Source of the DNA: an uncultured Oscillospiraceae bacterium
GTDB taxonomy: Bacteria > Bacillota > Clostridia > Oscillospirales > Oscillospiraceae
Direction: 5' to 3'
Assembly (NCBI GenBank): GCA_944385125.1
Contig: CALWVZ010000007.1
Coordinates: forward strand, 1 to 53,951
DNA length: 53,951 bases
Positions 2,567 to 50,339 of this stretch are shown here, one piece after another (positions within the stretch are counted from its first letter, which is position 1; every line of letters starts with the position of its first letter). The notes under the pieces are model-generated. The model searched no databases. It had not been told where the DNA came from and worked only from the letters and a program-made list of their open reading frames with translations. A program made the position numbers and the translations under genes.

Positions 2567-2926
2567 ATGAATCAATTCATATTACATCAGGAGCAGACTA
2601 AAGAGTCCCCATTGCTGCTTGGTACGGTAGTGGCCTATGACACGACCAAGGGTGTGCGTATACAGCTGGACGGCGAGGAGACTGCTGGCGTCAAATACTA
2701 CAAATCCCGCAAAGGATTGATCACTGCTGTCGGAGATCGTGTCGTCCTGGCCCCCATCAGCGGCTCTTATGTGGTGCTTGGCACTGTAGGACTCCCCGCC
2801 AGGAAGTACAATATGAATCAATGCCCGACCGGGAGTAATGCCACGGCGGCAAATTGTGCCGCCTGGATAAACACCTTGATAGAGGCGCTTACGGCACAGG
2901 GGCTTATGTCTAAAAACGGGTGGTGA
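2567..2926 (+). CDS. Small phage baseplate protein (OB-fold-like)
   Basis: A 119-residue protein preceded by GAGGAGG at 2556-2562. The N-terminal 75 residues have an alternating beta pattern with LLGTVVAYDTTKGVRIQLDG and VGDRVVLAPISGSYVVLG, the look of the OB-fold found in baseplate and spike-base proteins of tailed phages. The C-terminal part is helical and includes a Cys-containing stretch. It lies nine bases after the hub gene, in the position where small baseplate proteins occur. No enzymatic motif is visible, and the exact family is uncertain. Confidence 0.5.
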   Translation: MNQFILHQEQTKESPLLLGTVVAYDTTKGVRIQLDGEETAGVKYYKSRKGLITAVGDRVVLAPISGSYVVLGTVGLPARKYNMNQCPTGSNATAANCAAWINTLIEALTAQGLMSKNGW

Positions 2927-2930
2927 TTAC

Positions 2931-3878
2931 ATGATAATTAAATTTGCACTTGACCATCAAAAAATAGAGCGGCTGGACACTGAATTTGTGGTAGCGGACT
3001 CCCAGAATTATTTATATGCCGAATTCCAGCTGCTTTCAGACGATTGGCAGCCACCAATTACCGCCCTCTTTGATAGCTATGCGGTGATTCTGGACAGCAG
3101 CAACAGCTGCTTAGTGCCCTGGGAAGTGCTGAAAAAGACCACATTTAAGGTAAGCGCATTCTGCGGAGACTTACACACGGCTGCCGCCGCTGTGATCTTT
3201 GTCAATCCCAGCGGCTACGTCTCCGGGGAGACTCCAGAGCCACCAAGTCCGGATGTGTACACACAAATTCTTGACATTGCTTCATCGGCAAAAAACATCG
3301 CCGAAAGTGTGCGGGCCGATGCGGATGCCGGGGCATTCGATGGAGAGCCTGGCCCCAAGGGCGATATGGGTGACACCGGTCCCCAGGGACTCAAGGGCGA
3401 CACCGGGGAATCCGGAGCCACATATACTCCGAGTGTAGATGAGGACGGATTACTAAGCTGGGCAAATGACAAGGGCCTGGAGAATCCAGAGCCGGTCAAC
3501 ATCCGTGGTCCCCAGGGCCCCAAGGGCGATGCTGGCGACACGGGTCCTCAAGGCCCTAAGGGCGATACTGGCGATACAGGCCCCCAAGGCCCGGCCGGAG
3601 AAATAGCGGTACTGAGCTTTGCTGATGTCATAGTGCCTGCCACATCATGGGAGAACGATGACACCTATAGCGAATACCCTTATCGTGCCTCGATCCTGCT
3701 GGACAATGTTACAGCAGAGCATTTTGCAACTGTTGTTTTTTCAGTAGCCGATGCCATTGCTGGGCAATATGCTCCAGTGGCAGAGACATACGATGGAGGG
3801 ATATACATCTACTCCAATGAGCCAATTGAAGCTAGTGTGACAATCCCGACAATTGTGGCGATCCCCTGTGGATCATAG
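2931..3878 (+). CDS. Phage tail protein with collagen-like repeats
   Basis: A 315-residue protein with three parts. Residues 1-100 form a globular N-terminal domain common to phage baseplate proteins (LYAEFQLLSDDWQPPITALF). Residues about 137-163 and 190-225 are Gly-X-Y repeats such as GPKGDMGDTGPQG, expected to trimerise as a collagen-like rod, separated by a short globular insert (ATYTPSVDEDG). Residues about 226-315 are a C-terminal beta-rich domain, probably the receptor-facing tip. Start ATG 2931 follows the preceding gene by four bases. The likely role is a side fibre or baseplate attachment protein that binds the host surface. The repeat DNA is a probable recombination site. Confidence 0.7.
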   Translation: MIIKFALDHQKIERLDTEFVVADSQNYLYAEFQLLSDDWQPPITALFDSYAVILDSSNSCLVPWEVLKKTTFKVSAFCGDLHTAAAAVIFVNPSGYVSGETPEPPSPDVYTQILDIASSAKNIAESVRADADAGAFDGEPGPKGDMGDTGPQGLKGDTGESGATYTPSVDEDGLLSWANDKGLENPEPVNIRGPQGPKGDAGDTGPQGPKGDTGDTGPQGPAGEIAVLSFADVIVPATSWENDDTYSEYPYRASILLDNVTAEHFATVVFSVADAIAGQYAPVAETYDGGIYIYSNEPIEASVTIPTIVAIPCGS

Positions 3879-3886
3879 GAGGGTAT

Positions 3887-4168
3887 ATGGAGGGTCGGAC
3901 AAACGCAAAAAAAGGTCTCCACACAATAAATATTGTCCTGCAACCAAACTGGACCGGGGGCTCTGACCAATATAGACAGGATATTTATATCCCAGGCATA
4001 CGAGTGGATGCTGCCGCAATTATAGATTTTGATGTATCGGCTCCAGAGGTGAAATCTGCGATAGCAAATATTGAGCGCATAGTGTGCCAGCCGGGAATTA
4101 TTACTGCTTACTCGACCACACAGATTGATGTACCTATACCGATAACCATAAGGGGGGATTGGCAATGA
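3887..4168 (+). CDS. Small phage tail-associated protein, unknown
   Basis: A 93-residue protein, with GGAGGG around the start region and an upstream gene eight bases away. The sequence is beta-rich (INIVLQPNWTGGSDQYRQDI; VCQPGIITAYSTTQIDVPIP) with no signal peptide or membrane segment. Proteins of this size and position, between a collagen-like tail protein and the lysis genes, are common in Clostridia phages, but I cannot assign a function. Its TGA at 4166-4168 overlaps the ATG of the next gene (ATGA), implying translational coupling. Confidence 0.55.
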   Translation: MEGRTNAKKGLHTINIVLQPNWTGGSDQYRQDIYIPGIRVDAAAIIDFDVSAPEVKSAIANIERIVCQPGIITAYSTTQIDVPIPITIRGDWQ

Positions 4169-18010: not shown

Positions 18011-20779
18011 TTACTGCTGCCCGTTCCGTACCAGTTTCTGATACAGCTTCATCAGCTCCGAAACGCAGGAGCTCTCCGTGGTGGTCTTGATATCGAAGCC
18101 ATAGGCCTGCATGACCGCCTTGTCGTTTTGCTGGTGGGCCTTGCGCAGCTCCGGGGGCATGGTGGTCTCGTCATAGAGGTCGGCCAGGCTGGAGTCGGGG
18201 AAGAGGGTGCGGGCGTCCAGAATGGCCTGGGCGGTCTTTTCTATCCTCGCTCTCTGCTCCTCGGTGGGACTTGGCCAGGGGAAGTTGTTGTAGACTGCTG
18301 GTGAATAGCTGTAATCACTTTTGAGACGACCTGCCGTAACCCTCATCCATGCCATGTGGACATTGGATATCATAACGCCGAACATGTAAAGGTCTGCATT
18401 TGGTATCAGGTAAAGTTTATTGCTCGCAATAATATCTGGAGTTAAAAAACCAATGGGAATATATTTCCGGCTTTGCGATGAAACTTCTGGAACAGCTAAG
18501 TAATTTGTATTAGGCTGTCTGATTTGGGTGAACAACATTGGAGTCTCTGCATCGCGGCGCACCGATGCTGTAGGGCTCTTTGCCCTGCTGGATGCAACAA
18601 GCTTTAAGCGTTCTACAATTGGAGAAATTGAACGATAGCAAGCAGGAGATATTCCGCATAACCACAGACAATAACGTACTTCATTATTAATTAAATCTCT
18701 TGAGCCAACAAACCTCTTTATAAATGGATTTGCATTTGGATAAGTGGAAATTATTTCTGTGCGCTCTTCTTCCGATAATATGAGATGGCCCCCATCGGTT
18801 GGCTGACTACCTTTACTCATATCTGGAAAACCTGATGTCAAAGGTTTTCCACGGGACATGATGAAAATATCTGGTGCATCTACAAGATAACCATTAATGT
18901 GAGACACTTCTTTTTTTATTCCAGATTCAAATAAATATCTTTTCCCAATATTTGAACCACAAGTAAACCCAACAATCACACAGTGTACAGCAGCTTTGTC
19001 TTTTGCTTCACTGGTCCAGACAAAAGTACGGTAGGCGAACTCTATTGTAACATGCTTTTTCTTAAACAATGGAGCCCATAAAATACCAACAGATTCCCCC
19101 TGAGAAATAGAGTTTGTGGAGACAAAGGCTGCATGTATGGAGGTATTCTGCATATAATCAGCTGCTTTATTATACCAACCGCACACATAGTCCAGTTTCC
19201 CACATTTTGGGATGTCGTGACATACCGCTTCCAAATCTTCCGCCTGTTCTTTTGTGCGCCACTGATGCCCTACAAAGGGCGGGTTGCCCATTATATAATT
19301 CAGCTCATGCCTGGGCACCACGCTCTCCCAGTCCAGGCGCAGGGCGTTGCCCTCCACTATATTGGCATAGGATTTCAGGGGGAGGAAATCCAGAGACAGG
19401 TGCATGATGTCCTCGGTCTCCTTCATCATCTGGCTCTCCGCTATCCACAGGGCGGTTTTTGCCACGGTGACGGCGAAGTCGTTTATCTCAATACCGTAAA
19501 ATTGGGATATGGAGACCTGGATGGGGTTTGTGATATCACCGAAGCTTATCTGCTGGGAAAGGGAACGGAGCGCTTCATTTTCCAGCTTTCGCAGGGAGAT
19601 GTAGGTCTCGGTTAAAAAATTGCCGGAGCCGCAGGCAGGGTCCAGAAACTTCAGCCCCGCCAGCTTGCGCTGGAATTCCCTCAACCGCCGCTTGCGGCTG
19701 GTCTCCACGGAAATGCCCTGTATCTCCGCCAGCTCCGCCCTCAACTCGTCCAAAAACAGCGGGTCGATGACCTTATGTATGTTTTCAATACTGGTATAGT
19801 GCATGCCGCCGGAGCGCCGGGTCTCCGGGTTCAGGGTGCTCTCAAACACGGCGCCGAATATGGTGGGGCTGATGGCGGACCAGTCAAAGTCCTCGCTTGC
19901 CCGGCGGAGAATCAAATCCACAATGTTGTCATCCAGACGGGGGACAACGATGTTTTCATCGGCAAACAAGCCGCCATTTACATAGGGGAAGGCGGCCAGG
20001 TCCTCATCCATATATGGGTCCCGTTCTTCCGGCTTGGTGTCCAGGACCTTGAACAAGTCAATAAGGGCTCGGCGGGCGTCGCTATGGTGCCGCTGCATAT
20101 AGTCGTGAAATTTACTGTGGCCGCCGAATATCTCCGAGTCCTCGGCGTAGAGGCAGAACACCAGCCGCACGCAAAGAGCGTTAAGGCTCTTCAAGGTCTC
20201 CGGAGACTGGGGGTCCCTGTACTTCTTCAGGAGAGCATCGTACAGCGTGCCCACTATTTCCCCGGCTTGCAGGGAGATCTCCATCTCTTTTTTTATGTTC
20301 TCGTCCCCGGTATCCACCAGGAAGTTCAAACGGTGGTATTCTTTCTCCAAGTCCGCCAAGGCTACCACCTCCGGCTCGTCATTGGGCCGGTTCATGTCGT
20401 GTATCTCAAATTGCTGAAAATTGCAGACAACTATCCAGCGGGGGTTCATATTATGAGGCAGATATCCGGCGTAACGGCGGGCTTGCTGATACGGGCTGAG
20501 AACTGAGCCGTCGGACTGCCGAAAGCCCTGACGAAGATTTACTTCGATGCTCTTTTGCTCTATGAGAGTGCGGGTCTCTTTTATGTAGCCGTCAATAAAG
20601 CTGACATGGTCCAGCTTTACAGGATACTCAAAATCGACTGCCTTTTCGGCGTCTTCCACGCCGTAGACGTTCCGAAGCAGACCGATCCAAAAGCTTTGGG
20701 TGTCCTGCTTTTCATCGCCTTTGCCCCTCCAATATTCTGCAAACTTTTTTGCTGCCGCTCTCTGCTGCATGTCTGTCAT
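18011..20779 (-). CDS. MmeI-like type IIL restriction-modification enzyme
   Basis: A 922-residue single-chain enzyme. Residues 60-80 carry the nuclease motif D63-X10-E74-Q-K76. A helical linker follows, then the N6-adenine methyltransferase core from about residue 355, with LDPACGSGNFL (motif I) and NYIMGNPPFVG (motif IV, NPPF). The C-terminal part holds the target recognition domain and an end region (YNNFPWPSPTEEQ, then DARTLFPDSSLADLYD) typical of this family. Length matches MmeI (about 919). The stretch 18290-19270, residues about 503-830, is far richer in A+T than the rest of the gene. Start ATG 20779 follows GGAGG. One polypeptide would suffice for cutting and methylation. Confidence 0.9.
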   Translation of the reverse strand: MTDMQQRAAAKKFAEYWRGKGDEKQDTQSFWIGLLRNVYGVEDAEKAVDFEYPVKLDHVSFIDGYIKETRTLIEQKSIEVNLRQGFRQSDGSVLSPYQQARRYAGYLPHNMNPRWIVVCNFQQFEIHDMNRPNDEPEVVALADLEKEYHRLNFLVDTGDENIKKEMEISLQAGEIVGTLYDALLKKYRDPQSPETLKSLNALCVRLVFCLYAEDSEIFGGHSKFHDYMQRHHSDARRALIDLFKVLDTKPEERDPYMDEDLAAFPYVNGGLFADENIVVPRLDDNIVDLILRRASEDFDWSAISPTIFGAVFESTLNPETRRSGGMHYTSIENIHKVIDPLFLDELRAELAEIQGISVETSRKRRLREFQRKLAGLKFLDPACGSGNFLTETYISLRKLENEALRSLSQQISFGDITNPIQVSISQFYGIEINDFAVTVAKTALWIAESQMMKETEDIMHLSLDFLPLKSYANIVEGNALRLDWESVVPRHELNYIMGNPPFVGHQWRTKEQAEDLEAVCHDIPKCGKLDYVCGWYNKAADYMQNTSIHAAFVSTNSISQGESVGILWAPLFKKKHVTIEFAYRTFVWTSEAKDKAAVHCVIVGFTCGSNIGKRYLFESGIKKEVSHINGYLVDAPDIFIMSRGKPLTSGFPDMSKGSQPTDGGHLILSEEERTEIISTYPNANPFIKRFVGSRDLINNEVRYCLWLCGISPACYRSISPIVERLKLVASSRAKSPTASVRRDAETPMLFTQIRQPNTNYLAVPEVSSQSRKYIPIGFLTPDIIASNKLYLIPNADLYMFGVMISNVHMAWMRVTAGRLKSDYSYSPAVYNNFPWPSPTEEQRARIEKTAQAILDARTLFPDSSLADLYDETTMPPELRKAHQQNDKAVMQAYGFDIKTTTESSCVSELMKLYQKLVRNGQQ

Positions 20780-27483: not shown

Positions 27484-30400
27484 TCAGCCTATGCCCCGGC
27501 CCAGATAGGGGTCGCCGTCCACATAGATGCAGCCCCGGTCGCAGTCGATGCGGTGGAGGTGGGACTGGCGGTCTATCCAGGTGACGGAGTAAGAGGGCAG
27601 GGCGGAGGGCAGCTTGGGCTCTATATAGAGCTTGCCCTCCTTGAGCTTCAGACCCAGCAGCTCCTCCGTCACTACCCGGAAGTACCAACCGGCGGAGCCG
27701 GTATACCAGCTCCAGCCCGCTTCTCCCTCGTGGCCGGGGGCGGTATACACGTCGGCGGGGAGGACGAAGGGCTCGGCGCCGTAGCGCTTTATATCATGGT
27801 TTTCCGGCAATAGATACTGGAGTATCTGGTAGCCCTGGTCCGTACGGCCACGGCGCAGGGCGGCCAGGGCCAGCCATATGGCTCCGTGGGTGTACTGGCC
27901 GCCGTTTTCACGGAAGCCCTCTCCGTAGCCGGAGATATAACCGGGCCTCCGCTCCCGGGAAGAATAGGGGGGATCAAAGAGCTTCACCAGCTTGTTGGGC
28001 ATGTCCACCAGCCGGCCCAGAGCCGCATCCAGAGCCTTTTCCACGTGGAGAGGGGAGGAGTAGGGGCTGAGAGCCGCCCAGCTCTGGGCCAGGGAATCTA
28101 TACGCTCCTCGCCCCCCAGGGCCTCCCCGTCGGGGTAATAGGCCCGGTCGTACCAGCGTCCGTTCCAGGCTCCCTCGGCGGCCAGCCCTATCTGGCGGGC
28201 CCCTGCCCTGTAACGCTGGGCTCCCTCCAGCCCCAGCTTTTCCAGCAGGGAGGCGAAGGCCAAGGCGCAATGGGAGAAAAACCAGCCCAGCCACACGCTT
28301 TCGCCTTCCACTGCGTCCAGAGCGTCGTTCCAGTCGCCGCCCAGCATACGGGGCAGACCATGGGGGCCGAAGCCCCGGCGTATGCAACACTCCAGGGCGG
28401 CTCTGGCGTGGAGCAGCATGGAGGCGGAAGAGGCGGTCTCGGGAGTCTCGTAGCGGTCCTTTTCGTGAGAGGCCAGGGGCGGAGATGCCAGATAAGGCAC
28501 TTGCACATCACACAGCTCGTAGTCCCCGGTGGCTTTCGTATATTCGCACAGGGCCCACACAAGCCACAGCAGGTCGTCGGAGCAGCGGGTGCGCACACCC
28601 TTGTCGCCCTGGGGGTGAGGATGCCACCAGTGCATCACGTCCCCCTCCAGGTACTGGTGGCGGCAGCAGAGGAGTATCTGCTCCCGGGCAAAGGAGGGGT
28701 CTATGAGCATCAGGTTCACGCTGTCTTGCAGCTGGTCCCTGAAGCCCAGGGCCCCGCCGCTCTGGTACAGGCTGCTGCGCCCCTCCAGACGGCAGGCCAC
28801 GCACTGGTAGACGGCCCAGCGGCTCATGTACCTGTCCAGAGGAGAGGAAGGAGAACGGAGAGAAAAGCGTCCCAGCAAGTCCTCCCAGCGGGCGCAGACC
28901 GGGGCCAGCAGGGCGGCGGCCATTCCGGGAGCCAGCAGTTCCCGCAGCTGCGTCTCGCTGCAAAAGCCGCAGACCAGCAGGCTTTTGTCCCGGCATGTGC
29001 AGCTGAGACTGAGGGCCGCCGGACAATGCTCCGCAGAGACCTCGGCTCTTTCGGAGCAGGCGGCCAGAAATTCCCGCTCCGGGAAATAGGCCTCCGAGTT
29101 CTCGAAGTGGGCGACGCCGTCTTTTACACTGCCCCTGACGCCGGAGGGGTCCCCGGAACCCAGACAGAGCTCCATGCCCCAGCTCAGGCGAAGCCCCTCC
29201 GCACCTTCTATAAGAATGATGCGGACGTCGCTGCCCAGAGGTATGAAGACCGTGGTTCTGATCCTGCGCTCGCCCAGGCGTTTTTCCCAGACAGCGTAGC
29301 CCGGGGCATAAAACACCTTGCAGGGGAAGCCGTCGTTTGCGGCAAAGAGGCTGAGGCTGCGGCCCTTATATTCAAGGCAGATGAACTCGGGACCCCTTAG
29401 CCCGGCGGCGTCTGCGGCGGGCCGGTTTACCCGCATCTCTCTGGCATTTTCCAGCCACATGCAGCCCAAACCACAGTCGGCGGCGATATAGCCGAAGGAG
29501 CCGTTGGTGAGGATGTGCTGCCAGGCCACCGGGGGCAGGCTGCCGTCCACCTGGAACTCAAAGCCCTGCTCCGTCCAGGAATGGACCGGCAGGCCGGACA
29601 CGGCTCTGGAAGAGCCGGAAGGCGGGAAGGAGAGAGGCGGGGGCAGCTGCCGCTTCTCCCCAAATATCACGGCGCAGCGGCTTTCAACGGCGGGGCGGGC
29701 GGAGGAAGGCAGCACGTGCACGCCGCCGGGAGAGCCTATAAGGGCCTCCAGCCCCACAGGGGAGAGTACCGAGAGTATGCGCCCCAGCAGGGGCTGCTGA
29801 TATTCTCCCTGCTGGTCCGAGAAATACACCAGGTCGGCGTTGAGTCCGCAGCTTTTCAGCAGACAGAAGCGGCGCAGCAGTTTATCACTGTCGGGGCTGT
29901 CTCCAATGCAGCAGATGACAGGCAGGTCCCCGGAGAGGCCGTAGCGCCACAGCTCCCTGCGTGGAGCAGCTCGGTAGAGCCTGTTCTGCCACAGGGGCAG
30001 CACCATGTCCATGGCCGCCCCCAGCTCCTCCGGGCTCATGCCCAGGTGTACCCCGGCGGCTCCGGCCATGGAGCCCTGAGAGGGCTTTTCCGAGTACAGG
30101 ATGCGTTGGGCGGCTGCCAGAGCCTCCTGGCTGCTGCCGCCTATACTCAGAGCAAAGCGCAGCCGGCAGTTCCTCCCGCCCTCCAGGGAAAGGCGGATAC
30201 GGACCTTCACATAGGGCCTGGAGAGGGAGCCCAGACCGCCGCCGGCATCGGCATGGTACTCCGCCGTCTCACTGCACATAAGGCACAGCCAGAGCTCCCG
30301 GCCGCTGCCCTTTGGCAGGCGGCGCAGCAGCAGGGCCTGGCCCTCCTGCCGGGCCGTAAGGCCCAGGCGCCAATAAGCCGGATGGTCCTCCCAATGCCTC

Positions 30401-33400
30401 AGCTCTGCCAGCACCGGCTCGAAGCCCAGCTCCAGGCAGCTGCGGCACTGCCTGGAGCTTTGCAGCTCTATGCTGCGCAGTTCCCCTATATCTGCGGCGG
30501 CGGCGGAAGTGCTCATGACGGCGTTGAGACCGTCTGCGTTGCAGCTGCAGCGGCACTGATCCTCGCTCAGCTCCCACATGCTGGGCTTCTCTGCCGGGAA
30601 GAGTGGGCGCCCGTCGATGCTGACGCTCACGCCGCCGCCGAGAGAATCGGAATGATAGATGCAGTGCTCCCCAAGGGTGGCAGAGCTATGGCCGTGGTTG
30701 GTGACCATGATGTTATATGCGCCGTTGGAGAGGAGGCAGGCCCGAAGCCGGGAGTCCTCCGCAGCTCCCCGCAGCTGCCAGCGCTGACTTATATTGCGGC
30801 GGGGCTTTTCCGGCACCTCCGCCATTGAGCGGCGTATCACCACCGCTTCTGCCGGCAGACGCTCCTGGAGCAAAAGGGCATAGGCGGCCATGGAGCTCTC
30901 GCCCATGAAAAGCTTCTGGGCATAGCCCGAGCACACTGCGTTGGCGGCGGCAATGATGCTCATGCTCACGTGGTGGGCCATATAGCAGCTCACCTTTTCT
31001 GCCCTGCCCCGGCAGCGGGAGGGGGTGAAGTCCAGGGCCTCTATAAAGCCGTAGCGTCCCCGGGCATCCCAGCTCTCCAGACGGCGGAGGTTTTTTACCG
31101 CCGCCTCCGGCTCCACGGCCAGGGCCAGGAAGCTGCTGTAGGGGGAGACGACCAGGTCCGCTTCCTGGCCCCGCTTCAGGGCCAGAGCGGGACAGCCGTG
31201 GGCCTTATAGCGATAGCTGAGACTGGAGTCCAGAGAGTAGAAGGCACTCTCGGATATGCCCCAGGGCCGTCCGGGCAGGCAGCGGCGACGCTGGGCGTAC
31301 AGGCAGAAGCGGCTGCTCTCATACAGCAGGCTGCTGCGGTATACCGGCAGAAACAGCTCCGGCATGAGGTATTCGAACATGGTGCCCGTCCAGCTGGCAA
31401 GGCCACGATAGCCGTCCTTTTGCAGCTGGGCCCGGCTGAGCCTCCGCCAGTGCTTTACCGGCACGTCGCCCTTGGCTATGGCCAGGTAGCTGGTGAGCAT
31501 GGCCTCGCTGGCCATCAGGTCATACCAGCCGCCGGCGCCCCGGCGGTTCTCCGTGTCATAGCAGATATAGAACAATCCCCGGCCGCTGTCGTAGAGAGGG
31601 GAAAAGTCCATGGGGGCCATGATGGCGTCGATACGCTCCTTCAGCTCCCAGCGCCCCTGGCTCTCCAGCGCCTGGGACACGCAGAGCAGCCCTGCATAGA
31701 GATTGCCCGAGTCCACGGTGGAGATATACATGGGATTCAAAGGCTTCAGAGTACGGGTGTCGTACCAGTTATAGAAATGGCCCATGCACCGGGGCATGCG
31801 CTCCATAGCGTCGGCTATGCGGGAGACATATTCCGCCGCCTGCTCGGTGTCTATCAGACCCATACGGGCTCCGCACTCCACCGCCGCCAGGGCAAGCCCG
31901 ATATTGGTGGGAGAGCTGCGGTGGGCAAGACCCACCGGGGGCTGCTCCTGGAAATTGTCCGGTGGCAGAAAATTATCCTCCTCCCGGGAGAAGTCCAGAA
32001 GATAACGCAGATTTTCCCCGGCGGCCCTGGTGAGATAGTCTCTGTCTGCGGCCCGGAGACTGTGCTCTTTATAGGCGGGCAGAGCCAAGGCTGCCGCTGC
32101 CGCCGGACTTAAAAGCCACATGAAGCCGGAGGCCTTGCCGATAATGGCCGGGGAAAAGGCCATGAGCAGAATGCCCAGGACCAGAGGGAACCACATTTTC
32201 CTGATATGCTGGGCAAAGTCATGGCTGCCGCCCTCGCTCTGGGCCGCCGTCTGCCACTGCAAAAGCCGCTTCCGGCTTATGAGCATGCGCCACAGAGCGG
32301 TGGCTATGGCGGTAAAACAGACCCAGGCCTCATAGGGCAAAAGCCAGAGCCTTATAAAGGTCTGGACTATAGAGCCGCCTATGCCGGTGAGCAGCCGGGT
32401 ATGACGCTTTAGACGCACCCTCTCCCTCCGGGCAAGGCCGCCCTGGGCAAAGGAGAGGAGGAGATTGCTCAAAAGCGCCAGCAGAGCCGCCGATGCGGAC
32501 AGGGCCAGAGCCCTGTCCGGCAGCATGAAGCCGGAGAGTATGGCCAGAAAGGTCATAGGGGCGAAGAGACTGCGGCGCAGCGAATCAAAAAGCCGGAAGC
32601 GGTCCATTGCCCGAAGCTCCCTTTTGAATATCCAGGGGGCGTTCTGCCAGTCTCCCCGTATCCAGCGGTGCAAACGCTTGTAATAAGCCAGGGGTTTTGT
32701 GGGAAAATTGTCGGAAAACTCCACGTCCCCCATATAGGCGCCGTGGAGATAAGCCCCCTCCAGAGCGTCGTGGGAGAGGATGCGCCCTGAGGGGAAGCGG
32801 CTGCCGGTACACTCCAGCAGAGCGGCGGCGTCTATAAGGCCCTTGCCGGCAAAGCCGCCGTTGTCAAAGGCGTCCATATACAGCTCCCCGCACAGGGCCC
32901 CGTAAGGGTCGCTGCCCCCGGCCCCGGCAAATATCAGGGCAAAGTCCGTGGCATTGGCACTCTCAAGGCCGGTGGCCATGCGGGGGTGGATAAGCCCGTA
33001 GCCCTCCTTCACCACGTGACGCCTGGGGTCTATTACGGCCCGGTTCAGAGGATGAAGGGCGGCGCCGATGAGCTGCCCTACGGAGCCGGGATACACTTGG
33101 GTGTCGCTGTCCAGGGTGACTATATATCTGGTGCCGGAGAGGGCCGCCTCATTCCCGGTGAGTTCCAGGGCGGAGGGCTGGCCGTTCAGGAGCTTTGCCA
33201 GCTCCAGCAGGGCTCCCCGCTTTCTCTCCCGGCCGCTGTATTGCTCCCCGTCAAAGCTGCGCTGCCGGGTAAAGAGATAGAAGCCGCCGCCGTATTGCCG
33301 GTTCAGTTGGCGTACGGCCCGCCGGGTCTGGCGCAGCAGCTGCTCATCCTCTTTTGTGCTGGGGCTTTTGGAGGCGGGCAGGTCCGCCAGCAGGCCGAAC

Positions 33401-34521
33401 TGGAGCCTCTCCCCTTCGCTGCGGCAGGCCAGACGCAGCTGCTCCAGCCGATGGACCTGGCCCGGCGCCAGAATCGTGGATACCACGCAGAGGCTCTTAC
33501 CCTCCGGGGGCAGGCCATGGCTGGTATCCATCCTGGGCATGGGCCTGGGAGAAACCAGGTGCAGCAGTAAAAAGTCCATAAAGCTCTTTATCAGTTCCCA
33601 CAGAGGCACCAACAGCAGCGCAGCGGCAACAGGGCTGTCCAGATAAAAGCCGGTCACAAGGCTCAGGGACAGAGGCAGAAGAAGGTTGAGGGCGATATAC
33701 AGCCCCGACCACAGGGGAGAGGGCTTTTTAAACAGATAGAAACCTATATGCCGGTTCTCCTGCCGGGCCTGCTTTATGAGACTGCGGGCCAGCACCTGCT
33801 CCTCCAGTCCGGCCCGTCTTGCCAGCTTCTCCAGCCGCAGCAGATATTCCCGGCGGGTGGAGGAGTCCATGCGCTCATAGTCGCCGCTGGGGTCGGCGGA
33901 AAGTATGCCGCCGCTCACGTCCGCCTGGGCCAGCAGTTTTTCCAGGTCCAGCACCGAGAACAGGCGCAGGGATGTGAATAGGGCGGAGAGGGCCTGGGCG
34001 TGGGCCGTGGTGTCCGCAGCATACTGCATCTTGCGGCAGACCTGGGCAATGGAATGGATGAGAGCGCAGCGCAGGGCCGCCGGAAAAAGCTCCAGCTCCC
34101 GGCGCTGCAGCACCGTCACCGACTGAAAGCCGGAGAGAAAGACGCCGCAGCGCTCCTCCGTCACCTTGCCCAGACCAGAGCAGACCAGCTCCCGGCACAG
34201 CTCCGTTATCACTATGCCCTGAGAACAGCAGCGCAGCCGCCGGGCTTTTTTCAGCTCCTGAACGGCGGCGGCATACTCCCGCTGGACCATGTACCAGTTG
34301 TCCAGCAGCCACTGGCAGGCAGAGGGGGGAGCAGCCAGAGAGCCGTAGCGGCGCTCCACCGCCTGATGGCAGCGGCGTATCTCCCCAAAGCTGCGGCGCA
34401 GCAGCGCAGCCGCCTCCGCCCCGGCGCAGTTGTCCTGGGGCAGCAGCAGCTTTGCGGCGGAGGCTGCATAGCCGTACAGCCGCCCCTCTTCAATATAAAG
34501 ACAGGAATCTATGTTATCCAT
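27484..34521 (-). CDS. Giant cyclic beta-1,2-glucan synthase-like enzyme (GT84/GH94 type)
   Basis: A 2345-residue NdvB/Cgs-like enzyme. Residues 1-300 are helical. Residues about 330-800 are the GT84 glycosyltransferase with DSDTQVYPGSVG (nucleotide-sugar Asp), NGGFAGKGLIDAAAL, SHDALEGAYLHGAYMGDV and HRWIRGDWQ. Membrane helices occur before and after this part (YIALNLLLPLSLSLVTGFYL; FLAILSGFMLPDR; WFPLVLGILLMAFSPA). Residues 860-1250 are an (alpha/alpha)6-type region, and residues about 1300-2345 are beta-sandwich plus GH94-like phosphorylase fold with RMLGGDWNDALDAVE (GDWND, the catalytic Asp region of GH94). Family members cyclise or size beta-1,2-glucans and are large. ATG 34521 follows AGGAGA. 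No export or modification genes are adjacent. Confidence 0.88.
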   Translation of the reverse strand: MDNIDSCLYIEEGRLYGYAASAAKLLLPQDNCAGAEAAALLRRSFGEIRRCHQAVERRYGSLAAPPSACQWLLDNWYMVQREYAAAVQELKKARRLRCCSQGIVITELCRELVCSGLGKVTEERCGVFLSGFQSVTVLQRRELELFPAALRCALIHSIAQVCRKMQYAADTTAHAQALSALFTSLRLFSVLDLEKLLAQADVSGGILSADPSGDYERMDSSTRREYLLRLEKLARRAGLEEQVLARSLIKQARQENRHIGFYLFKKPSPLWSGLYIALNLLLPLSLSLVTGFYLDSPVAAALLLVPLWELIKSFMDFLLLHLVSPRPMPRMDTSHGLPPEGKSLCVVSTILAPGQVHRLEQLRLACRSEGERLQFGLLADLPASKSPSTKEDEQLLRQTRRAVRQLNRQYGGGFYLFTRQRSFDGEQYSGRERKRGALLELAKLLNGQPSALELTGNEAALSGTRYIVTLDSDTQVYPGSVGQLIGAALHPLNRAVIDPRRHVVKEGYGLIHPRMATGLESANATDFALIFAGAGGSDPYGALCGELYMDAFDNGGFAGKGLIDAAALLECTGSRFPSGRILSHDALEGAYLHGAYMGDVEFSDNFPTKPLAYYKRLHRWIRGDWQNAPWIFKRELRAMDRFRLFDSLRRSLFAPMTFLAILSGFMLPDRALALSASAALLALLSNLLLSFAQGGLARRERVRLKRHTRLLTGIGGSIVQTFIRLWLLPYEAWVCFTAIATALWRMLISRKRLLQWQTAAQSEGGSHDFAQHIRKMWFPLVLGILLMAFSPAIIGKASGFMWLLSPAAAAALALPAYKEHSLRAADRDYLTRAAGENLRYLLDFSREEDNFLPPDNFQEQPPVGLAHRSSPTNIGLALAAVECGARMGLIDTEQAAEYVSRIADAMERMPRCMGHFYNWYDTRTLKPLNPMYISTVDSGNLYAGLLCVSQALESQGRWELKERIDAIMAPMDFSPLYDSGRGLFYICYDTENRRGAGGWYDLMASEAMLTSYLAIAKGDVPVKHWRRLSRAQLQKDGYRGLASWTGTMFEYLMPELFLPVYRSSLLYESSRFCLYAQRRRCLPGRPWGISESAFYSLDSSLSYRYKAHGCPALALKRGQEADLVVSPYSSFLALAVEPEAAVKNLRRLESWDARGRYGFIEALDFTPSRCRGRAEKVSCYMAHHVSMSIIAAANAVCSGYAQKLFMGESSMAAYALLLQERLPAEAVVIRRSMAEVPEKPRRNISQRWQLRGAAEDSRLRACLLSNGAYNIMVTNHGHSSATLGEHCIYHSDSLGGGVSVSIDGRPLFPAEKPSMWELSEDQCRCSCNADGLNAVMSTSAAAADIGELRSIELQSSRQCRSCLELGFEPVLAELRHWEDHPAYWRLGLTARQEGQALLLRRLPKGSGRELWLCLMCSETAEYHADAGGGLGSLSRPYVKVRIRLSLEGGRNCRLRFALSIGGSSQEALAAAQRILYSEKPSQGSMAGAAGVHLGMSPEELGAAMDMVLPLWQNRLYRAAPRRELWRYGLSGDLPVICCIGDSPDSDKLLRRFCLLKSCGLNADLVYFSDQQGEYQQPLLGRILSVLSPVGLEALIGSPGGVHVLPSSARPAVESRCAVIFGEKRQLPPPLSFPPSGSSRAVSGLPVHSWTEQGFEFQVDGSLPPVAWQHILTNGSFGYIAADCGLGCMWLENAREMRVNRPAADAAGLRGPEFICLEYKGRSLSLFAANDGFPCKVFYAPGYAVWEKRLGERRIRTTVFIPLGSDVRIILIEGAEGLRLSWGMELCLGSGDPSGVRGSVKDGVAHFENSEAYFPEREFLAACSERAEVSAEHCPAALSLSCTCRDKSLLVCGFCSETQLRELLAPGMAAALLAPVCARWEDLLGRFSLRSPSSPLDRYMSRWAVYQCVACRLEGRSSLYQSGGALGFRDQLQDSVNLMLIDPSFAREQILLCCRHQYLEGDVMHWWHPHPQGDKGVRTRCSDDLLWLVWALCEYTKATGDYELCDVQVPYLASPPLASHEKDRYETPETASSASMLLHARAALECCIRRGFGPHGLPRMLGGDWNDALDAVEGESVWLGWFFSHCALAFASLLEKLGLEGAQRYRAGARQIGLAAEGAWNGRWYDRAYYPDGEALGGEERIDSLAQSWAALSPYSSPLHVEKALDAALGRLVDMPNKLVKLFDPPYSSRERRPGYISGYGEGFRENGGQYTHGAIWLALAALRRGRTDQGYQILQYLLPENHDIKRYGAEPFVLPADVYTAPGHEGEAGWSWYTGSAGWYFRVVTEELLGLKLKEGKLYIEPKLPSALPSYSVTWIDRQSHLHRIDCDRGCIYVDGDPYLGRGIG

Positions 34522-44395: not shown

Positions 44396-46390
44396 TCAAT
44401 CCGCCAGGGTCCAGAACTCCTCCCGGCGGTTGCGGCTGTCAAGGAGATAGTTATGCTGGATACAGGCGTATTCCGTCAACGCCTCTTCATCGGTGTATTC
44501 AGAAATGTAGTGTACCTTGCCCTGGGCGTCCCAGTAGCACTGGGAGGAGATGACAGGATATTCCTCCGCCAAGTCAAGAAGGTACTTCTGGGCGCCTGTC
44601 AGCTCCAGGCCGCAGGCCTTCATCAGCTCTGCCGCCAGATAGTTGAGACTCAGGTCTTCGGGTAAATCAAAGTCCACATCGTAATTGGCCCAGAGAACAT
44701 AGGGCGTGATATAGCGGCGGTAGTGCTGGGTCGGGTCGTCGGAGACGGCGCTGCCGGTGAGCTCCATGATGGGAGCGGCTACGTCGTCGTTGGGCTGGTG
44801 ATCGCCGAAGAGAAGAATGACCGTCTTTTCATTGGTATTGGAGAAATACTCTATAAGCTCCTGGAAATCCTTGTCCGTCTCCCGCATAAGAGAGATGTAC
44901 TCGGTCACCGAGCCGTTATCCTCCAGCCCGTCCACTGTGACACAGGTGTCAAATTCATCATTCATCTCGCCATGGTAGCCGCCGTGGTTCATCATGGTGA
45001 TGCCAAAGAGGAAGAGGGGCTGCTCACTGTCCTCATAGATATCCTCCACAACCTTATACATTTCACTGTCGGTTATCCAGAGACGGAGGATCTCCGCATC
45101 CTCGGGGAAGGCCTCTTTGAAATACATGTCCTGAAAACCAAGGAGAGGATATACCTTGTCCCTGTTCCAGGAGGGCCCCCAGAAGGCATGAGCGCCCACC
45201 GTTCTGTAGCCAAGAGAGTTGAACTGGGTGGCCAGGCTGGGCACCGGGGTACTGATATACTGGGGATATGCCACGACGCCCTGGGGCAAAAAGCCCAAGG
45301 TGAGGCCGGTGAGGAACTCAAATTCGGAGTTGGGGGTATTGCCCCCCAGCACGGAGACATGGGCCCAGCCCTTTGCGGTGTTCTCTTCCAGAGAGTCGAT
45401 AAAGGGGAAGAGAGGCTCGCTGGTCTCGTAATCTCCCAGCACTCTCAAGTCCGAATAGGATTCGTTCATTATGACGATGACATTGGGCCGCTCCTCATCG
45501 GCCTGCGTGGATATCTGATCCGAGGGGTAGGCGGAAGCGAAATCGTCGATCATATCCAGGCTGTAATTTTCCGGCGCCCTGCCGTAGTTGCTGGAGACCA
45601 GGAAGGCCACCATAAAGCCGTTTCTGGTATATACCACGGACACATCGCTGCTGGTATTGTCCAGGGAAAAGGTTCTGATACAGTGGTCTGAACGCACATA
45701 GAAGCAGCTCCCCACCAACAGAGCGCAGACGGCGGCGGACAGAGACAGACGCAGGGGGAGCTTGCCCCCGAGCACACGCTCGCTGCACTTTATACCCAGG
45801 ACCACCTGAAATATGGCGATGGCAAAGACAAAAGCGCCCCGGATCGTGGGCAGGAAAGTATAGTTGGATACAACGCCCATGGCGGTAGTAAAGGAGCCGA
45901 TGTCCCAGGGCAGCAGGGGATTGCCTCTGAACTGCATTACATAATAGCTGATAAAGCCAACGCACACGGGGAATATTGTGACGATAGCCACCGCAGCGGA
46001 GGACCGGCCAAAAAGGAAAAGCAGGAACAGGCCCAGCAGATAATAGAGGACCAGGTTGAGAATGATGATGGGTATAGAGATGTCCCTGGGCGCAAAGTGG
46101 GTTATGTATTCCATTAGAAAGAAGCTCACGCCGGGGGCTGCCGCTATACTTAGATAACGCAGGAGCCGGGGCAGACGGGGCCTGTAAAGGAGAAGGAGCG
46201 TTGAGAGCAGAGCGGCGGCATGGATCAGCAGTATCAGCTTGCGCTCGCCGCCCTCTATAAGGTTCACATAGGGCAGGGTATATCTGTAGGCCAGCTCTAT
46301 GAGAGCCGCCGGAATAAAGCAGCAGACGAGCTTCAGCAGGGCGGGGAAGCTGAACTTATCCGGGAGAAACATTTTCTTTAACACGAACAC
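44396..46390 (-). CDS. LTA-synthase-like membrane sulfatase/phosphoglycerol transferase
   Basis: A 664-residue protein with five or six N-terminal membrane helices (for example LLKLVCCFIPAALIELAY, IIILNLVLYYLLGLFLLFLF, GAFVFAIAIFQVVLGI), then an extracellular sulfatase-like domain from about residue 285: PNVIVIMNESYSDL (metal Glu), VLGGNTPNSEFEFLTG with the nucleophilic Thr, FLFGITMMNHGGYHGEM, and LLFGDHQPN (metal GDH). Such enzymes polymerise lipoteichoic acid or transfer phosphoglycerol to other polymers. It lacks the C-terminal catalytic extension typical of some members. The start is ATG 46390; a promoter lies at 46494-46522. Confidence 0.9.
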   Translation of the reverse strand: MFVLKKMFLPDKFSFPALLKLVCCFIPAALIELAYRYTLPYVNLIEGGERKLILLIHAAALLSTLLLLYRPRLPRLLRYLSIAAAPGVSFFLMEYITHFAPRDISIPIIILNLVLYYLLGLFLLFLFGRSSAAVAIVTIFPVCVGFISYYVMQFRGNPLLPWDIGSFTTAMGVVSNYTFLPTIRGAFVFAIAIFQVVLGIKCSERVLGGKLPLRLSLSAAVCALLVGSCFYVRSDHCIRTFSLDNTSSDVSVVYTRNGFMVAFLVSSNYGRAPENYSLDMIDDFASAYPSDQISTQADEERPNVIVIMNESYSDLRVLGDYETSEPLFPFIDSLEENTAKGWAHVSVLGGNTPNSEFEFLTGLTLGFLPQGVVAYPQYISTPVPSLATQFNSLGYRTVGAHAFWGPSWNRDKVYPLLGFQDMYFKEAFPEDAEILRLWITDSEMYKVVEDIYEDSEQPLFLFGITMMNHGGYHGEMNDEFDTCVTVDGLEDNGSVTEYISLMRETDKDFQELIEYFSNTNEKTVILLFGDHQPNDDVAAPIMELTGSAVSDDPTQHYRRYITPYVLWANYDVDFDLPEDLSLNYLAAELMKACGLELTGAQKYLLDLAEEYPVISSQCYWDAQGKVHYISEYTDEEALTEYACIQHNYLLDSRNRREEFWTLAD

Positions 46391-46677: not shown

Positions 46678-49600
46678 TTACAGGGCGGGAGCGGGGGAGG
46701 GAGTGGGGGTCACCACGGCATTGGCAGAGGATGCAGGGCTGAGGGAATAGGGAGAAAGCACATCGGGCAGCTGCTTTACAAAGTTAATTTTCACTTGAGC
46801 TGTCTTGCCCTCATACTCCGCCGTGACGGTGACGCTGCCGCCGGTATTGCCCAGATTTTCCACTACACAGACCCCGTGCTTCCCGGGCTCCAGGCTAAGC
46901 TTGCTCTCGTCGCTCACCGTCCAGACAGGGTCCTCCACGGTGTCCGGGCCCATGTCTCCCAGGACCTGGGCAGACAGACGGATGGGAACGGCATCGGGCA
47001 GGGTGAGCTGGGAGACGGCTCCGAAGTAATAGATGTACAGCTCATCGTCTATGAGCTGGCCCGGCGCTATACTCTCAGCTTTCAGGGCACGGGCGCTGGG
47101 GGGACTGCAGCTTAATAAAAGCTCCCCGTCCATGAAGGCGTTGCTGCACTGGTCAACTACCCGGGAGAAACCGTTATCGTGGAAGTTGCAGTCTTCGATG
47201 CTGACGGATTTGCAGCGGGTCAGATTCAAATCGCCGCTGCTGCACTCATATATCTCGGTGGTCTTCACCTGAAGACCGTTGCAGTCAATGGCAGTGATGC
47301 CCCATACGCCGCAGCCGTAGAGGGAGCAGGACTCTATGCTTATATTCCCTGTATTGTTGAAGTACAGCACGCCGCCGATACAGCTGCCGGGAGCCTGGCT
47401 ATGGCCGGCGGTAAAGCCGGAGAGGCTGATATCCTGGCAGTTGTCAAAGGCCAGGACCTCCGCATAGCGGGGCTTGGCGATAATGGAAGCCTTATCTGCG
47501 CCGCCGCCGGTGATGCTCAGCCCCCGCAGATTGCATATGACCAGCTGGGGACCGTCTACGCCGGTGTCTTTCCACAGATAATACTGACTTCCGTATCCGC
47601 CGTAGCTGGCGGCGGAGCTCAAGTCATAGTCCCCGTCCTCCAGATAGATGGCGGTGTTGGGAGCTATGGCCGCCAGGAACTCATCCACAGTGGAGACATG
47701 GACATAGCCGTCCTCAGCTGCGGCAGGCTTGGAGCTCTCCACATCCGTGGGCTGCCATCCCTCCACGGTAAAGCGCTCCATGGACTGAAGCTGGCTTTCG
47801 CTGAGGGGCTGACCCTGGGCGTCTACTGCCTGCATGGACTCCTCCTGACTGAAGAGGTAGGGCGCCGTATACCAGGGGCCGCTGTTGCCGCTGAAGGCGC
47901 AGCCTTCGACCATTACCGCTGAGCCGCCCATATAGAACATTCCGCCGGTGAGGCTGTTGTTTTCAACGCTGTTTCCGGCAAAATATGTATTGGGGCAGTA
48001 ATTGGCGTCCAGCAGGGTGCGGCCGCTGTTGCCGCTTATCTCGCAGTTTATAACGGCGCAGTTTTCACTGGTGCTGAAGGAGAAAAGGGAGTAATTGGAA
48101 ATGTTGTCGTATATCCGGCAGTTGTTGAAGACCGCATCCAGGCAGTTCCTCAGCTCTGTGGCGGAGTTGCTGCAATCATATATCTCGCTCTCCACTACCT
48201 GGATGCCGGTGGAGTCGACTCCCCGGACCCCTACCACACCGCAGCCGAAGAGCTTGCTCTGGCTGATTATTATGCTGTCCACGGCTGCCAGGTCCACCAC
48301 GCCTCCGGCGCACTCGCCGGCGGCCTCGGTATGGCCCAGGGTAAGGCCGGAGATACATATATCGGCGCAGCTGGAGAAGCTGAGCACGTCGGCATAGCGG
48401 GGAATGGCGGAGATGGTGACATCTCCTTCGGCTATGAGGCTAAGGCCGGAGAGACCGCTGATGACCAGCTCCGGGCCGTCAAAACAGTTTGCCCAGCTGT
48501 AATATCCGCCCTCATGGGCCACGCCGTAGTCTGAGGCCTGGGACAGGTCGTAGACGCCCTCAGTGAGAGTGACGGTGGTATTGGGGGCGATGGCGGAGAG
48601 CAGCTCGTCCACCGTGGAGACGGTGACGCTGCGGGGCTCCGGGGTGGGAACGGGACTGGGGGAAGGAGCCGCAGTTTCCCGGGGAGGGGCGCTCTCTGCG
48701 GGAGGGACAGTGGCCTGGGCATCCTTCTCCCCGCCGGGACCCAGGGCCCCGGCACAGCCGCACAGCAGCACAGTGGCTGCCAGCAGCAGGGCAAGCCCGG
48801 CCCGGCTCATGGGTTTATATCTCATTATCTGTTCCAACCTTTCTCTCAGATTCCGTTTCTCGGTGGCAAAGCTGGTGGCCACCAGACGCCGGGGCAGAGA
48901 ACCTGAAGCGGCCAGGGAGAGGAGAGTCTCCCCATAGCTGCGCTTGTCCCTGCTGTCCATATGGCGCAGCAGTCTCTCATCGCAGCTCATTTCGCAGGCC
49001 CGGTCCAGCTCCCGGCGGGCTATATGTACTATTGGATTGAACCAGTGGAGAGCGGAGGACAGCACCGCAAACCACTTGAATATCAGATCTCCACGGCGGA
49101 AGTGGGTCAGCTCGTGACGGAAAATATTGCTGAGCATCTGGGGAGAGTAGTCCCGCTGGGGCAGCACCAGCACTGGGCGCAGCAGGCCCAGGAGAATGGG
49201 GCTGCCCAGGGACCGGCTGCGGCAAAGTCTCAGCCGCCGGGGAGCGCCTGCCTCTCTGAACTGCCGACGCTCCTGGAGCGGGGAGGGGCAGATACTGCGG
49301 CCCAGGGCCAGCCTGAACGCCAGATAGACCCCCATATACCAAAACAGACTTAGGGCTGCCCCAGCCGCCCAAAGCCAGAACCAAAAGGCGGCGCTGCTTA
49401 TTATGGGGAGGACAAGCTCAAACAGCTCCTCCCCCAGGGCTGCCAGAGAGGGCAGCATGGGCCGGCGCTGAGGGGCGGCGGAGGTGGAGGGGACGGCGGA
49501 ATAGGGGAGCTCCGTCTCCTCAGGGGCGGAATAGTTTTGGTAGACGGTGTCCTCAGCCCCGCCGGAAACAATGGGGAGTTCGCCGGACCTGGCCGTCCTG

Positions 49601-49851
49601 AGCTCCTCCGTTTGGGAAGAGGGAGAAGCGGATACCGCAGCCTCAGGGGCAGAGGAGGCCCCGCTGCCCGGACCGGGCCCCAGCATCCCGGGCAAAGGCA
49701 GGACAAGGCGCAGCAGCACCAGCAGCCAGGCATAATAATAGAAGGAACTGGGCAGCCTGGCGCCCAGGAGCAGCCTGAGCCCCAGCACCAGCAGGGCCAG
49801 GATGCTGCCTCCCAGAGACAGGGAGAGCAGAAGCTGCAAGAAGCCGCTCAT
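46678..49851 (-). CDS. BlaR1-type M56 metallopeptidase with two beta-helix sensor domains
   Basis: A 1057-residue membrane protein. Residues 1-180 contain membrane helices 1-3 with a Pro/Ser/Ala-rich insert at 57-130. Residues 200-330 are the M56 gluzincin domain with HELTH (residues 246-250) and ELDRACEMSCDERLL, the third metal ligand. Residues 350-367 form the fourth helix (ALLLAATVLLCGCAG). After a Pro/Ser linker the exported part has a first right-handed beta-helix from about 404 (STVDELLSAIAPNTTVTLTEG) to 700, and a second from about 716 (STVDEFLAAIAPNTAIYLEDG), both with turn patterns such as ISGLTLGHT and ISLSGFTAGHS. A bacterial-Ig-like domain (SKLSLEPGKHGVCVVE) ends it. It lacks the penicillin-binding domain of BlaR1. 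It overlaps blaI by 4 bp. Confidence 0.88.
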   Translation of the reverse strand: MSGFLQLLLSLSLGGSILALLVLGLRLLLGARLPSSFYYYAWLLVLLRLVLPLPGMLGPGPGSGASSAPEAAVSASPSSQTEELRTARSGELPIVSGGAEDTVYQNYSAPEETELPYSAVPSTSAAPQRRPMLPSLAALGEELFELVLPIISSAAFWFWLWAAGAALSLFWYMGVYLAFRLALGRSICPSPLQERRQFREAGAPRRLRLCRSRSLGSPILLGLLRPVLVLPQRDYSPQMLSNIFRHELTHFRRGDLIFKWFAVLSSALHWFNPIVHIARRELDRACEMSCDERLLRHMDSRDKRSYGETLLSLAASGSLPRRLVATSFATEKRNLRERLEQIMRYKPMSRAGLALLLAATVLLCGCAGALGPGGEKDAQATVPPAESAPPRETAAPSPSPVPTPEPRSVTVSTVDELLSAIAPNTTVTLTEGVYDLSQASDYGVAHEGGYYSWANCFDGPELVISGLSGLSLIAEGDVTISAIPRYADVLSFSSCADICISGLTLGHTEAAGECAGGVVDLAAVDSIIISQSKLFGCGVVGVRGVDSTGIQVVESEIYDCSNSATELRNCLDAVFNNCRIYDNISNYSLFSFSTSENCAVINCEISGNSGRTLLDANYCPNTYFAGNSVENNSLTGGMFYMGGSAVMVEGCAFSGNSGPWYTAPYLFSQEESMQAVDAQGQPLSESQLQSMERFTVEGWQPTDVESSKPAAAEDGYVHVSTVDEFLAAIAPNTAIYLEDGDYDLSSAASYGGYGSQYYLWKDTGVDGPQLVICNLRGLSITGGGADKASIIAKPRYAEVLAFDNCQDISLSGFTAGHSQAPGSCIGGVLYFNNTGNISIESCSLYGCGVWGITAIDCNGLQVKTTEIYECSSGDLNLTRCKSVSIEDCNFHDNGFSRVVDQCSNAFMDGELLLSCSPPSARALKAESIAPGQLIDDELYIYYFGAVSQLTLPDAVPIRLSAQVLGDMGPDTVEDPVWTVSDESKLSLEPGKHGVCVVENLGNTGGSVTVTAEYEGKTAQVKINFVKQLPDVLSPYSLSPASSANAVVTPTPSPAPAL

Positions 49852-50287: not shown

Positions 50288-50303
50288 GACTACGTACGTC
50301 ATC
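50288..50303. promoter_or_regulatory. Candidate BlaI operator, imperfect palindrome
   Basis: GA, ACGTACGT and TC positions of a 16-bp palindrome (50288-50303) with two mismatched pairs lie between the -10 box and the blaI start codon. Confidence 0.45.
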
Positions 50304-50310
50304 TGGATAT

Positions 50311-50339
50311 AAAATAACACGGCAGTCTACAAGTGTCAA
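50311..50339 (-). promoter_or_regulatory. Promoter of blaI-blaR1
   Basis: Minus-strand TTGACA (50339-50334), 17-base spacer and TATTTT (50316-50311). The -35 box touches the perfect 14-bp palindrome at 50338-50351. Confidence 0.65.

Follow-up and report, generated by a model that had tools for sequence, protein, structure and literature searches.

A BlaI/M56 operon with a tandem β-helix ectodomain in an uncultured Oscillospiraceae bacterium and its apparent regulation of itself

The window, meaning the whole stretch of 53,951 nucleotides that was analysed (contig CALWVZ010000007.1), originates from an uncultured Oscillospiraceae bacterium. It is a relative of Candidatus Limivicinus and belongs to a lineage that inhabits the gut of ruminants and poultry. 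The window contains a reverse-strand gene pair consisting of blaI, which encodes a BlaI/MecI/CopY-type repressor, and a gene for a fusion protein in which an M56 metallopeptidase core is followed by two β-helices. The start of the fusion reading frame sits inside the end of blaI, giving a 4-bp overlap (ATGA). Resistance is the main context in which BlaI/M56 switches are known; in this operon the core is joined to a surface β-helix and apparently regulates only itself. The joining of an M56/BlaR1 protein to a β-helix was not found described in the open-licence literature, as judged by the titles and abstract openings of the best-ranked matches.

The gene pair, its protease core and its relatives

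The fusion protein belongs to Peptidase_M56 (PF05569), matching the profile with an expectation value (E) of 8.5e-47 and 160.2 bits, against a gathering score of 31. The zinc ligands H246, E247, H250 and E287 were invariant in alignments A1 (20 sequences) and A3 (32 sequences), the window's own sequence included, and a Foldseek search matched the protease part to the structure of BlaR1 (8exs, E 1.5e-7). Topology prediction gave four transmembrane (TM) helices and placed both β-helices outside the membrane. The AlphaFold2 model of the full-length protein had a mean predicted local distance difference test score (pLDDT) of 76, with the protease and the helices mostly above 85 and with residues 54-135 and most of residues 915-1057 below 50. 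The positions of all features are given in Table 1.

Table 1. Positions in the window of the operon, the parts of the fusion protein and the promoter elements
Feature	Positions	Strand	Remarks
M56 metallopeptidase–tandem β-helix fusion protein, 1057 aa	46678..49851	-	open reading frame, coordinates and strand all exact
blaI, BlaI/MecI/CopY-type repressor, 126 aa	49848..50228	-	PF03965 (Penicillinase_R), 1e-29
Loop TM2–TM3, residues 54-135	49447..49692	-	pLDDT<50; low complexity; variable in alignment A1; by position the counterpart of BlaR1 extracellular loop 1 (EL1)
Peptidase_M56 domain, residues 158-342	48826..49380	-	Pfam PF05569; Foldseek match to BlaR1 8exs
HELTH zinc motif (H246, E247, H250)	49102..49116	-	third ligand E287 at 48991-48993
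S327-F328	48868..48873	-	aligned with BlaR1 autocleavage bond S283-F284 (phmmer alignment with 8exp_A)
TM4, residues 347-366	48754..48813	-	ends in lipobox L-C-G-C; Cys366 at 48754-48756
β-Helix A, ∼residues 409-660	47872..48627	-	GHTxxxxxxCxGG motif at 506-517
β-Helix B, ∼residues 715-907	47131..47709	-	motif of the GHTxxxxxxCxGG kind at 816-827
C-terminal tail, residues 915-1057	46681..47109	-	possible Ig-like repeat, unproven; pLDDT mostly <50
BlaI-type operator site 1, TTGACACTTGTAGACT	50324..50339	-	overlaps -35 TTGACA; 0 mismatches to RNYKACANNTGTMRNY
-10 box TATTTT	50311-50316	-	17-bp spacer from -35
BlaI-type operator site 2, TGACGTACGTAGTC	50288..50301	-	past -10, 37 bp downstream of site 1; 2 mismatches to RNYKACANNTGTMRNY

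The protein was matched in 50 of a set of 60 genomes that contained its own and 36 others from the genus; among the matches listed from beyond the genus, similarity covered the M56 part only. When named genomes were scanned with the single protein as query, no relative was returned, and the scan with an alignment of the ectodomain (A2) provided the best 80 of 211 relatives (L091-L170), to which the counts below refer. Near relatives include Candidatus Limivicinus faecipullorum and metagenome-assembled Oscillospiraceae genomes, many of them titled as ruminant-derived. The 80 loci hold 55 fusions and 26 stand-alone ectodomain proteins, one locus (L105) having both.

A preliminary description of the locus, made from the DNA letters and their translations, had reported an M56 core with its HELTH motif kept and a BlaI partner, and had counted the absence of either from relatives as grounds for rejecting its interpretation. 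The profile matches and intact zinc motif bear out the report, and the architecture proved to be conserved: the gluzincin motif HExxH...E..CD was found in 54 of the 55 fusions, the remaining one being truncated, and blaI lay directly upstream of 52, the other three starting at a contig end. Serine or threonine followed by phenylalanine ([ST]F) occupied the aligned autocleavage position in 55/55 fusions; the corresponding S283-F284 is the self-cleavage bond of Staphylococcus aureus BlaR1 (PMC9834060, in the portion of the article available, as for its other mentions below).

At one related locus (L048, reading frames 414-2930 and 2837-4030) the fusion is split in two, with helix B in a different frame, through decay or assembly error. 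Another (L165, 12000-13614) has a second BlaI-M56 pair ∼4 kb downstream of the fusion operon, lacking the twin operator boxes described below. The bacterium's own genome (G000) contains two more M56 genes with BlaI-like neighbours, on contigs C24 and C32 (L001, L003), without a β-helix of this kind.

The systems closest to the fusion operon are BlaR1/MecR1 with BlaI/MecI of Staphylococcus and Bacillus licheniformis, which share with it the HExxH...E gluzincin, the S/T-F site, four predicted membrane helices, an adjacent BlaI and a signal-peptidase-type site outside TM4. BlaR1 and MecR1 have a penicillin-binding ectodomain, whereas the fusion has a double β-helix and a variable EL1 counterpart; the regulons also differ, that of the fusion being apparently the operon alone. 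The preliminary description was right that the penicillin-binding part is replaced: with E values of up to 1 allowed, neither Pfam nor NCBIfam detected a penicillin-binding or class-D β-lactamase domain in the fusion protein, and the NCBIfam BlaR1 model reached 96.1 bits against a cut-off of 400, with the match confined to the M56 part. These results argue against a sensor of β-lactams after all, a reading for which the BlaI/M56 core itself would speak and which is considered extremely improbable. Genes annotated as BlaR1-like in genomes of this kind do not necessarily indicate β-lactam resistance.

The tandem β-helix and its stand-alone forms

The Pfam profile Beta_helix (PF13229) matched the ectodomain in two stretches (8.2e-17), and the modelled fold of both was a right-handed parallel β-helix. 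Mean pLDDT over 10-residue blocks of the helices was ∼63-98, mostly above 85, and the ectodomain modelled alone gave a mean pLDDT of 89.5 and a predicted TM-score (pTM) of 0.86. Helices A and B are 46% identical over 178 residues (E 9e-50), a likeness too strong to be due to chance and in agreement with the earlier proposal that they arose by duplication. An immunoglobulin (Ig)-like domain that had been proposed for the C-terminal tail was not recovered, with no Pfam match at E up to 1 and mostly low pLDDT; judged by eye, residues ∼915-1057 resemble a bacterial Ig-like (BIG2) repeat. This tail has ∼90 more residues in the three nearest relatives (alignment A1).

Foldseek searches with the ectodomain ranked alginate lyases of polysaccharide lyase family 6 (PL6; AlyGC 5gkd, 8bwk) at the top, followed by other lyases, hydrolases, epimerases and the adhesin PfbA. 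PL6 enzymes have two consecutive parallel β-helices in tandem and use Lys/Arg catalysis with calcium. That the helices might have lyase or hydrolase activity on polysaccharides, as an enzyme tethered to a core of the BlaR1 kind, is suggested by this ranking and by the conserved residues of both helices, which over 37 aligned rows comprised an invariant Arg, a GH...C motif with its His and Cys, and a Cys series at 23-residue spacing. In the same rows, however, no Lys or Glu was invariant (three Glu positions were conserved at 90% or more), and so the catalytic Lys/Arg pair and calcium site of PL6 were not recognized. The matches were also distant, at ∼10% identity and with poor superposition, the TM-scores of the PL6 group being 0.11-0.24. 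A tethered enzyme is regarded as quite unlikely, and a binding function of the helices as more likely than PL6-type catalysis. The preliminary description had suggested that the system senses the wall or a glycan; from matches at the level of the fold only, we infer that the ligand may be a glycan. Matches of solved structures of “Bagel” β-propeller designs were discarded as sums of weak repeats, each repeat having an i-Evalue of at least 14 in the two alignments printed.

Stand-alone proteins of the same bacterial family have homologous single or double helices, lack M56 and an exact BlaI-type operator, and are apparently lipid-anchored or secreted. The GH-C-GG motif was present in 26/26 of them, twice in 9 and once in 17; among the fusions it was present twice in 53 and once in 2. 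In a family sample of 100 genomes (own included) the helices were matched in 16, and among the seven family loci opened (L231-L237) one from outside the genus (L231, genome G226) was an M56 and BlaI fusion, the rest being stand-alone proteins with a single or double helix. An order sample gave matches, mostly weak, in 13 of 147 genomes (own included). No second double helix was found in the bacterium's own genome.

A tree of the ectodomain (82 rows) required eight changes between fusion and stand-alone forms, at least five of them on well-supported branches, with the direction of change not fixed. The 5' region of one stand-alone gene (L164) reads LTERLELIMPYRKS, resembling the KERLEQIMHYKKS of the fusion (KERLEQIM); L232 has the same N terminus and may be from the same genome. 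Read at face value, the sequence suggests that the L164 protein lost its protease part and retained the membrane segment as a signal peptide, but the likeness could be due to chance because L159, the tree sister of L164, has no ERLELIM-like stretch.

Operators and reach of the repressor

The repressor was assigned to the BlaI family by its profile match and by twin ACANNTGT-type predicted operators at its own promoter. The 16-base consensus of CopY/BlaI-type operators is RNYKACANNTGTMRNY (PMC7253601, in the portion available); both sites of the window resemble these operators of CopY/CopR and BlaI, although the operon has no copper gene. Taken alone, the promoter scan was barely above shuffled sequence (2 found versus a mean of 0.8). 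Of the 52 blaI promoters from relatives, all but one (51) had a TTGACANNYGTA-type box covering the -35 hexamer. A second box followed beyond the -10, at a distance of 37-42 bp, in 52 of 54 promoters, a set that includes the window and one blaI unattached to a fusion; the distance was 41 bp in 33 and 37 bp in 12. Fit to RNYKACANNTGTMRNY was exact for site 1 in 50/52 promoters and for site 2 in 37/52. Together with the conserved gluzincin motif and the adjacent blaI, the twin boxes indicate that the fusion is a signalling protein built on the BlaR1 pathway, a proposal of the preliminary description that comparison among relatives renders well supported.

The bacterium's own genome contained a single copy of site 1 at up to one mismatch and one exact site 2, for which matches at up to one mismatch were fewer than in a reversed control (10 versus 24). 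Across 36 genomes (own included), the exact pattern of site 1 gave 16 matches in 15 genomes; 13 of the matches precede blaI and have a second box 36-42 bp away. The remaining three (in G049, G045 and contig C79 of G013) had no BlaI or second box nearby. Since they are not next to blaI, and one (G013, L090) belongs to a member of the genus, these three would suit a conventional sensor whose BlaI controls unrelated effector genes elsewhere, for example for glycan use, in the manner in which BlaR1/BlaI act on blaZ and mecA (PMC9834060). The absence of a second box at all three, and of a further copy of either site in the bacterium's own genome, speaks against such an arrangement. So do the stand-alone helix genes, of which 0/26 had an exact consensus site within -300..+150 and 1/26 had a site with one mismatch. 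This absence would not be telling by itself because the exact site was found in 29 of 800 random 450-bp windows, blaI promoters not excluded; it is made telling by the contrast with the 50 of 52 blaI promoters, and the stand-alone genes were rejected as BlaI targets. Control of unrelated genes is considered unlikely.

Regulation confined to the operon is rendered credible by BlaI_1845 of Clostridium thermocellum, which controls only its own operon via two pairs of inverted repeats (PMC8457756, in the portion available). The two systems are alike in having two inverted-repeat pairs, an own-operon regulon and GACTA-type half-sites. They differ in that the C. thermocellum operon comprises blaR1 and two hypothetical genes, with no β-helix sensor mentioned in that portion of the article. 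The operator survey is a strong hint, not proof, that the regulon of the fusion system is the operon itself, since the genome is 76% complete and BlaI binding is only predicted.

A TTCTTAAGAA-like box, found at ∼50370 in the window, occurred in 14 of 51 blaI promoters, where it precedes the -35 by ∼15-42 bp. It also occurred in 8 of 24 stand-alone helix genes, within the 140 bp before the gene, compared with 0.6-1.4% of random windows, a background that extends beyond intergenic DNA. The box may be bound by a response regulator or may serve as an AT-rich UP element.

The end of TM4 and a model of the circuit

TM4 follows a basic stretch, is followed by a variable linker and ends in LCGC at residues 363-366, in agreement with the lipobox pattern [LVI]-x-[GAS]-C. 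The strict pattern was present in 47 of the 55 fusions, and some Cys was present there in 52/55. When fusions and other M56 proteins were compared by the same script, with one truncated fusion omitted, the lipobox was found in 46/54 and 10/40, respectively (Fisher 3e-9, which is optimistic because the rows are related by descent). The 40 control proteins came from 59 loci after removal of 16 without a full-gluzincin reading frame, 1 without TM4 and 2 with fewer than 80 residues after TM4. Among the stand-alone proteins a lipobox was seen by eye in 14/26 (two starts were unreadable), and the rest mostly resemble ordinary secretion signals. LspA is encoded in the bacterium's own genome. In S. 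aureus, SpsB, a signal peptidase I, cuts BlaR1 just outside its last TM helix, ahead of the sensor (PMC9834060); the site in the fusion is of type II, in a place comparable by topology, not by residue alignment.

M56 proteins outside the β-helix family also end their last TM helix in a lipobox-like motif (4/11 in a phylum sample; L172, L174, L176 and L177). An internal lipobox may be in wider use among Bacillota M56 receptors.

The lipobox opens the possibility that the fusion serves mainly to make and dose a surface lipoprotein. M56 and BlaI would then act as a thermostat and TM4 as a signal peptide, signal peptidase II would cut after G365, and the double helix would be anchored at Cys366, with the cutting or its failure reporting to M56. 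The enrichment of the lipobox in fusions and its presence in stand-alone relatives are in line with this, as are the repeated interconversion of the two forms, the fusion-like 5' region of L164, the apparently self-only regulon and the signal-peptidase cut that BlaR1 undergoes beyond its final TM helix (PMC9834060). Constitutive cutting, however, would uncouple the sensor from the protease, and lipobox-like ends in a quarter of the other M56 proteins, fusions that lack the strict motif and the sister L159 without the shared stretch also tell against it, so that this possibility appears doubtful. Slightly more tentative again is the suggestion that TM4 is an internal lipoprotein signal peptide at which signal peptidase II splits receptor from protease, so that the β-helix “sensor” is the lipid-anchored end product, with sensor, effector and regulated target being one protein and no other output existing. 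An internal translation start at the conserved QIM343, which would give a free lipoprotein, was dropped as weak: Shine-Dalgarno-like 4-mers preceded it in 21 of 56 genes against 13.5 expected (standard deviation 2.8), and codon conservation around it fell outside the 20 highest windows.

The reading favoured here, to which a reasonable though not high probability is attached, is a self-repressing BlaI/M56 (BlaR1-type) transmembrane operon whose sensor is a tandem right-handed β-helix common to surface proteins, many of them lipoproteins. Two BlaI dimers would block the promoter by means of the two ordered boxes that bracket it. Binding of a ligand, most likely a polysaccharide, to the β-helices would shift TM4 and the M56 domain, and M56 would then cleave BlaI, probably at Ala/Ser/Thr-Leu, thereby derepressing the operon. 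Because no other twin-operator copy was found, the main output would be more of the receptor itself, and the sensor domain would therefore probably be an effector too, as a surface binder. Cleavage by signal peptidase II may set the ectodomain free in lipid-anchored form, much as signal peptidase I trims BlaR1. On the best reading, the circuit senses through, and chiefly makes, a surface β-helix protein.

Several observations weigh against this reading. The presumed cleavage region of BlaI is LVAA|L, which was tentatively placed opposite the published Asn101-Phe102 bond of S. aureus BlaI. At this site Ala, Ser or Thr is followed by Leu, the Leu being present in 53/53 sequences (the window and 52 others). 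BlaI and MecI, by contrast, have an Asn-Phe cleavage site, and Phe at P1' of BlaI is reported to be near-invariant (PMC9834060). In BlaR1, EL1 occupies the sensor site in the resting state. The EL1 counterpart is present as a loop, but since it is of low complexity, variable and modelled with low pLDDT, the activation mechanism of BlaR1 is not simply transferable. In one member of the genus (L052), the same BlaI, the twin boxes and the M56 core are found with no detectable β-helix, so that the ectodomain is exchangeable and the circuit is independent of it. The ectodomain matches from which a glycan ligand is drawn are the distant ones given above, and 8/55 fusions lack the strict lipobox, 3/55 having no Cys there. 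Other BlaI targets may be missing from the incomplete genome, in which two consensus patterns were searched.

The apparently self-only regulon, the stand-alone surface-protein family and the lipobox in the last TM helix go beyond the preliminary description. A BlaI/M56 core that has a surface β-helix and appears to regulate only itself opens two ideas to experiment: M56 receptors may serve more generally as transmembrane sensors, and an internal signal peptide may allow a receptor to become its own lipoprotein product.

Genes neighbouring the operon in the window recur beside it only in the three nearest genomes, and not all of them in each. A sulfatase-fold membrane protein encoded downstream of the operon (44396-46390, reverse strand), which we take to be LtaS-like, recurs there together with a nitrilase gene in two of the three (G016, G003). 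In the third (G029), the genes in common are a lipoprotein-like one and one for PPDK, and a lone ABC-F match was found at L043. With synteny limited to the nearest genomes, the neighbouring genes were rejected as operon partners. Elsewhere in the window, also on the reverse strand, positions 18011-20779 encode an MmeI-type restriction-modification enzyme with all five MmeI domains, and positions 27484-34521 encode a 2345-residue protein with glycoamylase-like and GH94 domains, presumably akin to cyclic β-glucan synthases.

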